This document shows, in pieces, positions 30,927-35,107 of a DNA stretch of 64,000 nt. The notes under the pieces were generated by a model. That model searched no databases. It had not been told where the DNA came from and saw nothing but the letters and a program-made list of their open reading frames with translations. Made by a program: the position numbers and the translations under genes. The stretch lies in contig CAJAFV010000073.1 in NCBI GenBank assembly GCA_903939115.1, positions 1-64,000 of the forward strand. Reading direction: 5' to 3'. Each line of letters begins with the position of its first letter. The stretch's first letter is position 1. This DNA is from an uncultured Geobacteraceae bacterium. Its GTDB lineage: Bacteria; Desulfobacterota; Desulfuromonadia; Geobacterales; Pseudopelobacteraceae.

Positions 30927-31271
30927 ATGGCAACTATTAATGACCTAGTACTCATTCATGTGGATAATAAGCCGGGTTTCTACGCCCGTGTAGAGGATAT
31001 AGTTCCTGATGTCAAGCCTGGTTGGTGGCAGGTTACATTACTGGTGCTTACCTTTCCGCTGCAGGTCTTTACCTGGATCCTTGACGATCTTCAGCTTGAA
31101 GGAGCCGATTTTACTATGGGTGGTACGCCGCTTCGTTTGGAGGATCTTGTCTCTCCGGTAGAGTTGGAACGGATTGAGAAGGAAAAGAGCGATAAAGAGC
31201 GAGCACGCAAAGCACGCCTGGAGGGTGGCTCACCTAAAGTGATTTCACTTCTGGACCGCCGGAAAAAATAA
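30927..31271 (+). CDS. conserved hypothetical protein
   Basis: The function of this 114-residue protein is not recognised. The N-terminal half (HVDNKPGFYARVEDIVPDVK, then WWQVTLLVLTFPLQVFTWIL) looks like a small beta domain with a hydrophobic strand or helix. The C-terminal third is a charged helix (ELERIEKEKSDKERARKARLE). The start has AGG upstream and follows the Cys-rich gene closely. Its native terminator is the one split by the mobile element 17 bases downstream. Confidence 0.7.
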   Translation: MATINDLVLIHVDNKPGFYARVEDIVPDVKPGWWQVTLLVLTFPLQVFTWILDDLQLEGADFTMGGTPLRLEDLVSPVELERIEKEKSDKERARKARLEGGSPKVISLLDRRKK

Positions 31272-31287: not shown

Positions 31288-31308
31288 AAACAAGAAGAGG
31301 GCCCTTCC
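31288..31308. terminator. left half of a terminator split by the mobile element
   Basis: These 21 bases (AAACAAGAAGAGGG followed by CCCTTCC) are the perfect reverse complement of 35087-35107. Without the element, the two arms and the 9-base loop GGATGTCTT would form one long A-rich/T-rich bidirectional terminator. It would lie between this gene and the convergent ompA. Confidence 0.8.
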
Positions 31309-31317
31309 GGATGTCTT
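31309..31317. repeat. target-site duplication, left copy
   Basis: GGATGTCTT is present in the same orientation at 35078-35086, directly outside both terminal inverted repeats. A 9-bp direct repeat at this place is the expected mark of transposition. Confidence 0.88.
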
Positions 31318-31341
31318 CAAGCCGGTCATTTAATCTGTTGA
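31318..31341 (+). repeat. left terminal inverted repeat
   Basis: It reads CAAGCCGGTCA, then T, then TTAATCTGTTGA. It pairs with 35054-35077 at 23 of 24 positions. Confidence 0.88.
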
Positions 31342-31366
31342 CAAAATTTTCTAATTATAACACAAT
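31338..31366 (+). promoter_or_regulatory. possible transposase promoter at the left end
   Basis: TTGACA (31338-31343) starts in the terminal repeat. Seventeen bases later lies CACAAT, a weak -10; an AT-rich TTATAA lies closer but with too short a spacer. A start near 31373 would fall inside the hairpin at 31364-31394. Confidence 0.4.
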
Positions 31367-31394
31367 CCCCTTAGCTCATTAAGCTAGGGGGATT
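31364..31394 (+). promoter_or_regulatory. hairpin covering the transposase ribosome-binding site
   Basis: AATCCCCTTAGCT pairs with AGCTAGGGGGATT (13 bp, one G-T pair, loop CATTA). The 3' arm contains AGGGGG, the only good ribosome site for the TTG start at 31400. Transcripts entering from outside would carry the whole hairpin and hide that site. Confidence 0.55.
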
Positions 31395-31399
31395 TTAGT

Positions 31400-33169
31400 T
31401 TGGGCGAGCAGCGGCAAGGCATACGCATACCTGAGAGTGTAGGCGGGATACAAGTAAACCATTGTAAAAACCCATTGTGCCTAAATTTTGGTCGACCTGC
31501 CAGTAGCGAAAAGCAACCTCGTGGAGCTAACTCCAGAGGTCGAGACCGAGATGCTTACACGATCAAAGGTGATAAGGGCGGGACTCCAAAGTTACTGTGT
31601 AATCTCTGCAACGAAAAGCTCCCCATTAAAAGCAATTTGGCTATTAGTGAAGAATTACAAAGGTTCTCTAAATACATGAATCCGGCACCTGAGACTACCT
31701 GTCCGGAGACTACCTGTCAAAATAATACCGTTGGTGTTACCTCCCCGAAGGCATATCAATCATTTGGCACAACAACAGCCGGAGCAAAAAGATACCGCTG
31801 CAGGGCATGCGGTAAAACATTTTCTGTAAATAGTGACCCGACATCAAGGCAGAGGTTTGCCGGCAAGAACGAGGAAATATTCAGATTCTTGGTTAACAAA
31901 GTACCATTGAAACGAATGAGTGAGTTAGCCGACGTTGCCATGGGTACACTCTATCGTAAGATCAACTTCATTCACCGCCAATGTTTGGCATTCACGGCAA
32001 AGCAGGAACTTCGACTGCCTGACCTGCATATAGACCGCCTCTATTTGTCGGTTGACAGACAGATTCATATTGTTAACTGGAAACATGCTGGTGAGAAACG
32101 GAATATAATTCTTAACGCACTTGGTACAGCAGACAATAAAAGCAGTTATATCTTCGGGATTCATGTTAATTACGATCCATCTCTCAATGCGGAACAAGTT
32201 GAAAAAGACGCTGTTATTAATGGGGATGATCTTCTTAGTCCCCCATTTCGTCGTTATGCCCGCGCATGGCTTCAACAGGATTACACAAATGCAATAGGGA
32301 AGAGCAATAGTAAAAGATCGGTCTCGAAATATTTGCGTGATAGAATCCAGAATGAATACGACAATTCCAGCTCCAGAGAAGACATCGAAGAGTCGGAGAT
32401 CCAGACTGTAGAAACCGGACTCCCTTGCGAAGGTATACAAATACATTCGGAGTATACCATGTACGGCCACTTTCTCTTTCTCAAGCATCTATTGAGGAAT
32501 GTTGGCAAACTCAGGTTCTTTATGGATCAGGAATCTGGAATCAGAGCAGCCTGTTTATCTGGTTTCTGGCAGGAAGTCCTTGAAAAGCGTTGCGATGCCT
32601 TCTACGTTCGGATAAACAAAGACCTTACCGTTGATCAAAAGCGGAGACTTACAGCTAAAAGCAAAAAAGAACTGTCCGACTTCCGGGCATCAAGTGCTGC
32701 ATACAAGGAATTAACTGATCAAGACCTACGGCATTTTGTTATTAAGGATCACCTGAAAGAGCTCGTTGATATAGGTGATTGGAACGATCGATGGTTGTTC
32801 TATCCCTTTCCGGATATGAGCGAACCAGAGAAAGCAATCTGCTGGTTGACCGATCTTCAGGACAGAGCATATGACGACGACCACTTAGCCTGGCTGTACA
32901 GCAAGGGCACACTTCACGGAATAGACAGGTTCTTCATGCAGGCCCACCGGCGGCTTTCTCTATTAGAAAGACCCATCTCAAGTGCCAGTAACGAGGGGCG
33001 GAAGTGGCATGGGTATAGCCCATATAACCCAGCCATGGTCGGGAAGGCACTTGACATTTTTCGCGTGTTTTATAATTTCGTGGAGGTTGGGAAAGACAAG
33101 AAAACCCCTGCTATGCGTCTCGGACTAACTATAGCTCCGGTATCAATTAATGATATAGTGTCGCAATAA
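31400..33169 (+). CDS. large zinc-ribbon DDE-type transposase candidate
   Basis: The 589-residue protein starts with several zinc-finger-like cysteine pairs: C22/C27, C67/C70, C101/C106 and C134/C137 (YRCRACGKTFSV). A helix-turn-helix-like stretch follows (KRMSELADVAMGTLYRKINF, about 171-190). Candidate catalytic acids are Asp219 (LSVDRQ), Asp376 (FFMDQESG) and Glu523 (SLLERPIS). An IS1/ISXO2-like layout is suggested, but I cannot name the family. The TTG start has AGGGGG eight bases upstream. It is the only enzyme in the element able to move it. Confidence 0.75.
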   Translation: MGEQRQGIRIPESVGGIQVNHCKNPLCLNFGRPASSEKQPRGANSRGRDRDAYTIKGDKGGTPKLLCNLCNEKLPIKSNLAISEELQRFSKYMNPAPETTCPETTCQNNTVGVTSPKAYQSFGTTTAGAKRYRCRACGKTFSVNSDPTSRQRFAGKNEEIFRFLVNKVPLKRMSELADVAMGTLYRKINFIHRQCLAFTAKQELRLPDLHIDRLYLSVDRQIHIVNWKHAGEKRNIILNALGTADNKSSYIFGIHVNYDPSLNAEQVEKDAVINGDDLLSPPFRRYARAWLQQDYTNAIGKSNSKRSVSKYLRDRIQNEYDNSSSREDIEESEIQTVETGLPCEGIQIHSEYTMYGHFLFLKHLLRNVGKLRFFMDQESGIRAACLSGFWQEVLEKRCDAFYVRINKDLTVDQKRRLTAKSKKELSDFRASSAAYKELTDQDLRHFVIKDHLKELVDIGDWNDRWLFYPFPDMSEPEKAICWLTDLQDRAYDDDHLAWLYSKGTLHGIDRFFMQAHRRLSLLERPISSASNEGRKWHGYSPYNPAMVGKALDIFRVFYNFVEVGKDKKTPAMRLGLTIAPVSINDIVSQ

Positions 33170-33191
33170 GAATTATGGTCATAAGTTTTCC

Positions 33192-33200
33192 CAAGCCGGT
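33192..33200 (+). repeat. internal copy of the terminal-repeat core
   Basis: CAAGCCGGT, the first nine bases of the left terminal repeat, recurs 22 bases after the transposase stop in the same orientation as the left end. It may be a relic of an ancestral end or a transposase-binding site; chance is possible. Confidence 0.3.
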
Positions 33201-33300
33201 TGAATTTCCCATGCTTTCAAAAGTACTTTCTTTGTTGAAGCTCTCTGCATACAGCGCACATCATGCATAATGCTCGGTATTTACTGTGTTGTTTTATGAT

Positions 33301-33381
33301 AATTACATAATATTGCATATTGACCGTAATTATATAATATCGTATATTGACAGTAATCGCAGAATACTGTATATCTGCAAT
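33301..33381 (+). promoter_or_regulatory. three tandem 27-bp operator-like repeats and hipBA promoter
   Basis: Three imperfect 27-base repeats begin at 33301, 33328 and 33355. Each has a near-palindromic core: ATATTGCATAT, ATATCGTATAT and ATACTGTATAT. A good promoter lies in repeats 2-3: TTGACA (33347-33352), a 17-base spacer, TATATC (33370-33375). HipB-type antitoxins repress their own operon by binding such repeats, so this is the likely autoregulatory site. Confidence 0.72.
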
Positions 33382-33395
33382 AAAAAGGAATTTTT

Positions 33396-33641
33396 ATGCA
33401 AAGAAAGATAATTTCAGCGCAATCGCTTGGCGCGATAATCAAGGACGAAAGAAAGAAAATACATATTTCTCAAGACATCCTTGGAAAAATGGTTGGCTTA
33501 GATAAAGCGACTGTTTCATATATCGAAAACGGCAAAACTGGAGTGAGGCTATCTACAATCTTGCAGTTGATGTCTGCACTCAATATTGACTTGGTCGCAC
33601 AACCTAAAAAAACAGACATCCAATCAAAGGACTCTTGGTAA
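33396..33641 (+). CDS. hipB: HipB-like antitoxin, XRE-family regulator
   Basis: This 81-residue protein has a central helix-turn-helix of the XRE type (SQDILGKMVGLDKATVSYIE, about residues 29-48). The sequence around ENGKTGVRLSTILQLMSALNID is typical of HipB. It should bind the tandem repeats upstream and neutralise HipA. AAGGAA lies six bases before the ATG. The stop overlaps the hipA start by one base (TAATG), giving tight coupling. It is cargo of the 3760-bp element. Confidence 0.92.
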   Translation: MQRKIISAQSLGAIIKDERKKIHISQDILGKMVGLDKATVSYIENGKTGVRLSTILQLMSALNIDLVAQPKKTDIQSKDSW

Positions 33642-34966
33642 TGGCTCGACCAAAATTATCGGCACATATGAATGTCTATATGAACGGCGAGGAAGTCGGA
33701 CGCCTGACTTCCGCATCTACTGGGCAACTACAATTTGTGTATACTGAGGCTTGGTTACAATCCGAATTGAGCCGACCAATTTCATTGTCTCTGCCTCTTA
33801 CTTCGCAACCCTACAGAGGCAAGATCGTCGAAAACTATTTGGACAATCTTTTGCCGGATGCCCAGTCAATAAAAAACCGAATTCAGACAAGGTTTAGAGC
33901 CAATAGTAATAACAGCTTTGATTTATTGTGGCATATCGGGCGAGATTGCGTCGGAGCAATACAGCTTTTACCTGAAGGTCTAAGTGTTGGTAATGTTAAA
34001 ACAATAAAAGCAGAACCTCAAACAAACACGCAAATAGCACATATTCTTCACAACTATAAAAGCGCGCCTCTGGGTATGGAGGAGGACGATGACGATGATT
34101 TCAGGATATCTATAGCCGGAGCACAAGAAAAAACTGCTTTACTTAAACAAGGTAATCAATGGTACAAGCCTTTGGGTTCAACCCCAACCAGCCACATATT
34201 CAAACTCCCTATTGGCCATATAAAAAACGGTCTGATTGACATGACTGAGAGTGTTGAAAACGAATGGTTATGCCACTTAATATTCAAGGCATATTCTATC
34301 CCGACGGCAGAAGCTGAAATAGGAGTATTCGATGATGCCAAAGCGCTCATTGTAACGAGATTTGACCGAAGATGGTCTGATGACGGATCGTGGCTGATCA
34401 GACTCCCACAGGAGGATTTATGCCAATCATTGAACATCCCACCCGCCTTAAAATATGAGAACAAAGGCGGGCCTGGCATTGAAGACATCATGAGCATACT
34501 GGCTCAATCAGAGAATTTCATCAAAGACAGATATGTCTTCTTTAAAACACAACTATTATTTTGGCTACTGGCAGCGATCGACGGTCATGCAAAAAACTTC
34601 AGCATTTTCCTTCTTCCAGGCGGTGGCTATAAACTTACGCCGATATATGATGTTTTATCGGCGCACCACCTCGCCGAAAACGGTCAGATTCTTCCGCAAC
34701 ATTTAAAAATGGCCATGTCTGTCAAAGGAAAAAATAAGCATTATGGATGGGAACGAATACTTCCCCGACACTGGTTTTCCATGGCAACAATATGCCATTT
34801 TTCTTCAGATCAGGTAAGAAAGATAATTAACGAATTAATTGAATCGCTCGATACTATAATTGATCAGGTTGGGTCCCAATTACCCACTGACTTTCCGTCA
34901 AGAGTTTCAGGACCTATTTTTAACGGCATGTTGGTAGCCAGAGATATATTTATAAAGTCCTCGTGA
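33641..34966 (+). CDS. hipA: HipA-type serine/threonine kinase toxin
   Basis: HipA kinases phosphorylate glutamyl-tRNA synthetase or other targets and cause growth arrest. The 441-residue protein has the N-terminal subdomain (VYMNGEEVGRL). The phosphorylatable-serine loop is RISIAGAQEKTALL. The catalytic loop IDGHAKNFS and metal-binding YDVLSA are both present, so it looks catalytically intact. The ATG overlaps the hipB stop by one base. Placed in a transposon, it may act as an addiction or stability module. Confidence 0.94.
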   Translation: MARPKLSAHMNVYMNGEEVGRLTSASTGQLQFVYTEAWLQSELSRPISLSLPLTSQPYRGKIVENYLDNLLPDAQSIKNRIQTRFRANSNNSFDLLWHIGRDCVGAIQLLPEGLSVGNVKTIKAEPQTNTQIAHILHNYKSAPLGMEEDDDDDFRISIAGAQEKTALLKQGNQWYKPLGSTPTSHIFKLPIGHIKNGLIDMTESVENEWLCHLIFKAYSIPTAEAEIGVFDDAKALIVTRFDRRWSDDGSWLIRLPQEDLCQSLNIPPALKYENKGGPGIEDIMSILAQSENFIKDRYVFFKTQLLFWLLAAIDGHAKNFSIFLLPGGGYKLTPIYDVLSAHHLAENGQILPQHLKMAMSVKGKNKHYGWERILPRHWFSMATICHFSSDQVRKIINELIESLDTIIDQVGSQLPTDFPSRVSGPIFNGMLVARDIFIKSS

Positions 34967-35000
34967 ATACAGTCAACTCGTTTCTGCGCCCAAACATAAA

Positions 35001-35035
35001 ACAATACCCCAGGGTGATTTACCTTGGGGTATTGT
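35001..35035 (+). terminator. hairpin closing hipBA inside the right end
   Basis: A 14-bp stem, ACAATACCCCAGGG / CCTTGGGGTATTGT (one G-T pair), has a 7-base loop. It lies 34 bases after hipA and 18 bases before the right terminal repeat. No strong T tract follows, so termination efficiency is uncertain. It could also block incoming transcription. Confidence 0.55.
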
Positions 35036-35053
35036 ACTGCTAAAACGAATTTT

Positions 35054-35077
35054 TCAACAGATTAAGTGACCGGCTTG
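35054..35077 (-). repeat. right terminal inverted repeat
   Basis: Reading inward on the minus strand it begins CAAGCCGGTCA, then C where the left end has T, then TTAATCTGTTGA. Confidence 0.88.
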
Positions 35078-35086
35078 GGATGTCTT
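35078..35086. repeat. target-site duplication, right copy
   Basis: The second copy of GGATGTCTT, in direct orientation with 31309-31317. Confidence 0.88.
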
Positions 35087-35107
35087 GGAAGGGCCCTCTT
35101 CTTGTTT
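35087..35107. terminator. right half of the split terminator
   Basis: GGAAGGG followed by CCCTCTTCTTGTTT is the reverse complement of 31288-31308. It lies 16 bases past the ompA stop and would be the ompA terminator if reunited with the left arm. Confidence 0.8.

Follow-up and report, generated by a model that had tools for sequence, protein, structure and literature searches.

Many transposases recognise a short target sequence or insert almost randomly. IS1272 and TnSha1 of the IS1182 family, as described in the available text of PMC4923244 and PMC5678879, insert into inverted repeats that share no primary-sequence consensus and several of which are confirmed terminators; part or all of the hairpin is deleted and no target duplication is formed. 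A route in which the loop would be duplicated, 'pathway c', is drawn in the available part of PMC5678879 as hypothetical only. Here we describe a hipBA transposon and its family, which fit the picture of that route. The element lies at positions 31318-35077 of a 64,000-nucleotide stretch (the window) from an uncultured Geobacteraceae bacterium (GenBank GCA_903939115.1, contig CAJAFV010000073.1). Like IS1272 and TnSha1, the family inserts into terminator hairpins (20 of 28 sites); unlike them, it splits the hairpin at its centre, both arms are kept and 9-10 bp are duplicated.

Two further groups of elements are comparable in part. REP-targeting insertion sequences insert into extragenic palindromes (PMC1525189, available part). 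Their target is one repeated REP sequence, whereas the stems used by the window family differ and are accompanied by A/T tracts. Tn3-family transposons have toxin-antitoxin modules as passengers, with several independent acquisitions (PMC7157771, in whose available text the words HipA and terminator are absent). The window family likewise carries toxin-antitoxin passengers, but its transposase is different and the Tn3 mechanism is replicative. No description of the window family was found in the open-licence literature, in agreement with the original prediction for this locus, made from the sequence alone, which knew of no described family with this combination; ISfinder and subscription literature lay outside the search, so the family may already be listed there. 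The family apparently has no name yet; its kind of target is known from other elements, and the result of insertion is distinct.

The element and its empty site

The original prediction was an intact hipBA transposon inside a terminator hairpin, and this reading is supported: the element looks intact and the hairpin is terminator-like. An inverted repeat of 24 bp (23/24) had been reported to bound 3,760 bp; it extends to 28 nt with a 93% match. The duplicated 9-mer, GGATGTCTT, was confirmed to abut the element on both sides, as were the two 21-bp outer arms, which are 100% reverse complements. The same ends were ranked first by end-finding scripts that score only terminal repeats and duplications and ignore the outer palindromes. 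Joining the flanks with one copy of the 9-mer gives, as proposed, an uninterrupted stem-loop between convergent frames, which end at 31271 (plus strand) and 35124 (minus strand). This rejoined site of 89 nt forms a 23-pair stem centred on the 9-mer, with minimum free energies of -48.0 and -44.9 kcal/mol for the two strands. The large transposase candidate turned out to be a 589-residue protein with a predicted RNase-H-like fold, and the toxin-antitoxin pair is complete, with Pfam domain matches above the cut-offs for both hipB and hipA. All features are listed in Table 1.

The site without the element was looked for between species rather than between strains. A search for the region of the left-hand gene in 39 congeneric genomes gave matches in 37, the element's own genome included, and 20 loci were read. 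The hairpin stands uninterrupted directly after the left gene in 10 of the 19 loci other than the window's own (L085, L086, L087, L088, L090, L092, L100, L101, L102 and L103), and the orthologue of the right-hand gene ends within about 100 bp in L086, L087, L090, L092, L101 and L103. No such hairpin was found within the approximately 110 nt read after the left gene in the remaining 9 loci. Several of the empty-site loops start with GGAT, as does the duplicated 9-mer. Related species that retain the gene pair carry the rejoined palindrome that had been predicted for the empty site.

As perfect reverse complements, the outer arms could also be read as part of the transposon, namely as a longer nested terminal repeat, and not as host DNA. 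This explanation is practically ruled out by the empty sites: the arms lie outside the duplication, they vary between insertions, and they are present without the element in the ten loci of the same genus. Together with its recurrence across the family, the empty hairpin in these loci shows that the arrangement of the target is more than chance.

Table 1. Features of the hipBA element and its split target site (positions in the window)
Feature	Position	Strand	Remarks
Left arm of split host terminator hairpin	31288..31308	+	Uninterrupted hairpin in 10/19 same-genus loci
Target-site duplication GGATGTCTT, left copy (loop and innermost stem of target)	31309..31317	.	Centre = hairpin axis
Left terminal inverted repeat	31318..31345	+	Consensus in relatives
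Predicted promoter: TTGACA 31338-31343 within repeat, CACAAT 31361-31366 as -10 (4/6)	31338..31366	+	Prediction only, without shuffle control
Leader hairpin, terminator-like, facing inward; G-rich ribosome-site-like stretch in 3' arm	31364..31394	+	
Transposase, 589 residues, TTG start; two zinc fingers, helix-turn-helix, RNase-H-like domain	31400..33169	+	
hipB antitoxin, 81 residues	33396..33641	+	PF01381 3e-10, above cut-off
hipA toxin kinase, 441 residues; start overlaps hipB stop	33641..34966	+	PF07804 6.9e-49, PF13657 5.5e-28
Terminator-like hairpin, inward-facing, near right end	35001..35035	-	
Right terminal inverted repeat	35050..35077	-	
Target-site duplication GGATGTCTT, right copy	35078..35086	.	
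Right arm of split host terminator hairpin	35087..35107	+	

Target choice across the family

Ends were examined at 50 loci (43 + 7), of which 28 insertions were resolved and used. The others were excluded as unresolved, truncated at contig edges, fragmentary or, in the case of L074, a duplicate; L064 was resolved later and not added. L127 and L128 were taken as the same contigs as L039 and L050, and L126, L129 and L130 were outside the analysis. Right ends were not found in the available DNA of L039, L042, L043, L047, L049, L051, L067, L068, L072 and L079, and lone ends in the window's genome (C46, C55 and C58:158729) have no partner repeat. Another locus, L061, is a contig (1-3639) which starts and stops exactly at the terminal repeats and so holds the whole element alone; it is either a collapsed multi-copy repeat or an excised form.

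A stem score of at least 16 together with an A or T tract of at least 4 was found at 20 of the 28 insertions, compared with 1.52% of 11,200 flanking positions. Tracts on both sides occur at 15 of the 28, against 0.14% of the background positions. The sequences of the target stems vary widely between sites, while the A/T tracts are present. Both arms and the duplication are kept in the window element and in 21 further insertions; 21 of these 22 duplications are exact and one matches at 9/10 (L069). L041 is without a duplication and has a low hairpin score. Swapping flanks between sites served as a control for the A/T tracts. Among the 22 sites that retain a duplication, 17 have own flanks that pair at 7 or more of the 8 proximal positions, compared with 46 of 462 swapped combinations; pairing at all 8 positions is seen in 13/22 and 4/462, respectively.

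A distant relative gives a second data set. A 3,276-bp element (L082:4332-7607 and L131-L142; 3,275 bp in one record) holds the dfrG gene found on plasmids of Enterococcus, Staphylococcus and Listeria and in one Staphylococcus phage record. We followed this element in 13 plasmid and phage records, and dropping L139, where the left repeat is missing, left 12 with both ends. In a first control with mismatched flanks, A/T tracts and the pair L136 and L141 raised the count artificially (30/132 at a score of at least 16); the revised control uses the eight proximal positions only and leaves that pair out. Flanks of the dfrG element pair at 6 or more of these positions in 10 of 12 placements, swapped flanks in 12 of 130. 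We read L136 and L141 as insertions of the dfrG element into a single terminator in the two possible orientations, which is what a symmetric target would lead one to expect.

Insertions in intergenic terminators do little harm and a few insertions are found elsewhere (L052, L080, L081, L138 and L140), so one could argue that the family has no target preference and that only insertions in harmless places survive selection. We consider this very unlikely. Selection gives no reason for the duplication to be centred on the axis of the hairpin, yet among the 22 sites with a stem score of at least 16 the axis and the duplication centre are no more than 0.5 nt apart in 20, L077 and L078 being the exceptions. 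Nor would it account for one dfrG element in many different terminators, in one of them in both orientations. We add to the supported reading of the window locus that terminator-like hairpins are a preferred target of the whole family and not a chance landing site.

How the terminator is recognised is a question of even balance. Recognition of an extruded hairpin by the transposase is plausible, and the wide variation of the stem sequences fits recognition of structure at least as well as its alternative. Equally probable is that the terminator is read as symmetric or bent duplex DNA, or through supercoiling or a paused RNA polymerase. Besides the pairing arms, the sites have A- and T-rich flanks in common, a dimeric transposase could read a symmetric duplex, and the two modes are not separable by sequence alone.

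The transposase and its relatives

The transposase passed no curated cut-off in Pfam or NCBIfam. The IS1 model NF033558 matched residues 122-197 only (8.8e-8, 32.3 bits against a cut-off of 100), and the model of the IS1/IS1595 zinc-binding domain, NF050000, reached 24.4 bits against 28; both matches cover just the second zinc finger and the helix-turn-helix. Two IS256 models were likewise below their cut-offs (NF048018, 18.8 against 27; NF048019, 14.1 against 150), and there was no IS1182 model among the Pfam and NCBIfam matches listed. With scores below the family cut-offs, the protein was not filed under IS1, IS1595 or IS256.

By comparing a profile of the window transposase and 28 relatives (29 rows) using hhalign, we found that the zinc finger and helix-turn-helix resemble E. 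coli InsA (probability 93.2, E 2.9e-7, residues 119-188), a likeness to IS1; no similarity was found to E. coli InsB (probability 0.4), which was represented by a single sequence. The duplication length of IS1 is also similar to the 9-10 bp of the window family. Unlike IS1, which has two frameshifted frames, the window transposase is one frame of 589 residues.

The AlphaFold2 model has a mean predicted local distance difference test score (pLDDT) of 88.7 and an RNase-H-like fold. The best solved folds were ISCth4 of IS256 (Z 12.1, root mean square deviation (rmsd) 4.0, 237 residues aligned; Foldseek E 2.8e-4) and Tn5 (Z 10.2, rmsd 5.6, 271 residues aligned), so the fold is like that of these transposases, with a low sequence identity of 8-13% over the aligned parts. 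VIA-align listed no IS1-type chain, an absence that is not evidence. In the 29-row alignment D219 is invariant and D376 nearly so; candidates for the third acidic residue are D509, which is invariant and lies in helix 506-518 of the model, and E523, conserved in 27 of the 29 rows. The catalytic triad may thus consist of D219, D376 and D509 or E523, and, judged from the predicted fold, the family probably uses DDE/DDD chemistry.

Relatives of the transposase occur in 19 of 147 related genomes, in 25 of 277 genomes of the class and, with a stricter limit, in 3 of 395 sampled genomes of the phylum, the window's genome being included in each count. They were further found at 22 loci of the GTDB contig set, mainly in Proteobacteria and Desulfobacterota, and in 111 plasmid records, 79 of which are Enterococcus, with about 23% identity among those listed. 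In viral contigs, none of 205 pattern matches was confirmed. From these counts of genomes, contigs and plasmids, the distribution is patchy but wide.

Relatives with ends unlike those of the window element had been named as a possible refutation, and the ends that we found are homologous: they share a consensus with a CAAG-like tip and mostly start with CAAG, CTAG, CCAG or CGAG. The duplications of the relatives are 9-10 bp long, a length that depends on the placement of the tip and becomes 11-12 bp for some elements (such as L037 and L059) if CAAG-like tips are not preferred; the shift moves both edges of the duplication and leaves its centre unchanged. Resolved elements span from about 1.9 kb to 10.6 kb.

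Cargo, end hairpins and proposed mechanism

HipA of the window exceeds the cut-offs of PF07804 (166.8 bits) and PF13657 (97.8 bits) and matches E. coli HipA (2wiu) with 3.6e-110, the DGHAKNFS and SIAGAQEKTALL stretches being conserved. HipB, directly upstream, scores 40.4 bits for PF01381 (cut-off 23) and 48.6 for the antitoxin model TIGR03070, below the cut-off of 71.65. AT-rich near-repeats seen by eye upstream of hipB (window:33280-33395) are possibly HipB operators.

Cargo in the family was assigned by Pfam and PADLOC, and hipBA is one of many cargoes. HipBA is found in the window element and in L052, whose HipA has no significant BLASTP similarity to that of the window. Other elements carry AbiEii with a weak AbiEi match (L041), Xre-RES with a DNA methylase (L064), a CoiA-like nuclease with Fic (L063) or among other frames (L044), type II restriction-modification (L038 and L069), an ApeA-like protein (L048), a cold-shock/Excalibur protein (L017), a BRCT protein (L061) or, by record annotation, dfrG (L082 and relatives). 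By eye only, we noted a DnaJ-like frame in L070 and about 8 kb of metabolic-looking frames in L062, a 10.6-kb element (L062:1268-11901, minus strand) with terminal repeats, a 9-bp duplication and a terminator target. L036, L037, L045, L059 and L078 have the transposase and no cargo. The transposases of L063 and L064 are sisters with wholly different cargo and similar terminator targets, and cargo has therefore been exchanged. On Polaromonas plasmid 2, an MkoC-like protein (L079:8798-13042; PADLOC, 2.1e-157) lies directly behind a family transposase; it was not counted as cargo because the right end was not found.

The window's genome holds a second hipBA on contig C58 (L143:6409-8191), with a HipA that is 56% identical to the first. 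A solitary left end and a leader hairpin immediately precede it; neither a transposase nor a right end was found there, and the pair is probably the remnant of a decayed hipBA element.

Most likely, HipBA would help to keep the element by penalising its loss, or would defend the host. That it is incidental cargo without a role in the life of the element is the less probable explanation, although a sizeable one: the near relatives L058 and L059 have the transposase only, and other members carry metabolic-looking or unknown frames. Against this, unrelated toxin-antitoxin and restriction modules recur among the elements listed above, and the same genome holds the second hipBA next to its solitary left end.

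In 30 elements, inward-facing terminator-like hairpins occur within 200 nt of the end in 25 cases on the left and 21 on the right, compared with 269 of 1,800 random 200-nt windows. The strict scan misses hairpins with long loops or more mismatches, such as those seen by eye at the right ends of L069 and L070, and these counts are therefore probably low. In 39 left ends, TTG stands at repeat position 21 in 31 and a -10-like hexamer (at least 4/6) is present in 27. The hexamer is followed by the hairpin, whose 3' arm usually carries a G-rich stretch like a ribosome site a little upstream of the transposase start. Predicted folding weakens from -15 kcal/mol or stronger to -6.4 kcal/mol or weaker in 37 of the 39 if it is counted from the predicted start site. 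This arrangement resembles the known protection of IS10 and IS50 against read-through, and the hairpins near both ends probably insulate the element.

Combining these results, we propose with good confidence a family of transposons, probably of the DDE/DDD type, in which the transposase targets the dyad centre of intrinsic terminators and makes a staggered cut of 9-10 bp. The transposase would pair the element ends and join them 9-10 bp apart across the centre of the hairpin, the cut spanning the loop and the innermost stem pairs. Insertion splits the host terminator, and the element's own inward hairpins would probably take over its function; with these hairpins near its ends, transcription of both flanking genes is probably still terminated. 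Between the predicted repeat promoter and the transposase start, the left hairpin is expected to form solely in transcripts that read into the element from outside, which it would terminate and whose ribosome site it would mask, as the element's own transcript would start inside the 5' arm. The element would move exchangeable cargo, in this case hipBA.

The sequences themselves show the ends, the duplication, the target, the empty sites, the existence of the end hairpins and the range of cargo; catalysis (read from a predicted fold), the promoter and leader mechanism, the insulation and the part played by the cargo are inferred. Several points weigh against the proposal. No transposition was observed. 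The third catalytic residue is unsure (D509 or E523), and D376 is replaced by E in two rows. L052, L080 and L081 have kept duplications and no clear terminator, and L138 and the phage copy L140 are not in clear terminators. For the C89 insertion no empty-site test was possible, as relatives are unalignable next to the site, and for C90 the two good relative matches stop about 190 bp before it. Many end hairpins could also terminate outward, and promoters and start sites are predictions without a shuffle control.

More tentatively, and in our view rather less probable than not in its full extent, a wide-ranging unnamed family would recognise extruded terminator hairpins by structure and join its ends around the loop, by the hypothetical loop-duplication route in the available part of PMC5678879. 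It would replace the split terminator with inward-facing ones, shield its transposase from incoming transcripts and carry exchangeable toxin-antitoxin and restriction modules across phyla.

In the five proteobacterial plasmid records that we examined, the transposase is labelled 'hypothetical protein', so that elements moving toxin-antitoxin genes, restriction-modification genes and, in Gram-positive hosts, dfrG are easy to miss. The family can be annotated simply by its terminal repeats, duplication and terminator context. Furthermore, the base-precise centring on intrinsic terminators would make it a model for structure-guided target choice, and may offer a route to inserting DNA without breaking genes.

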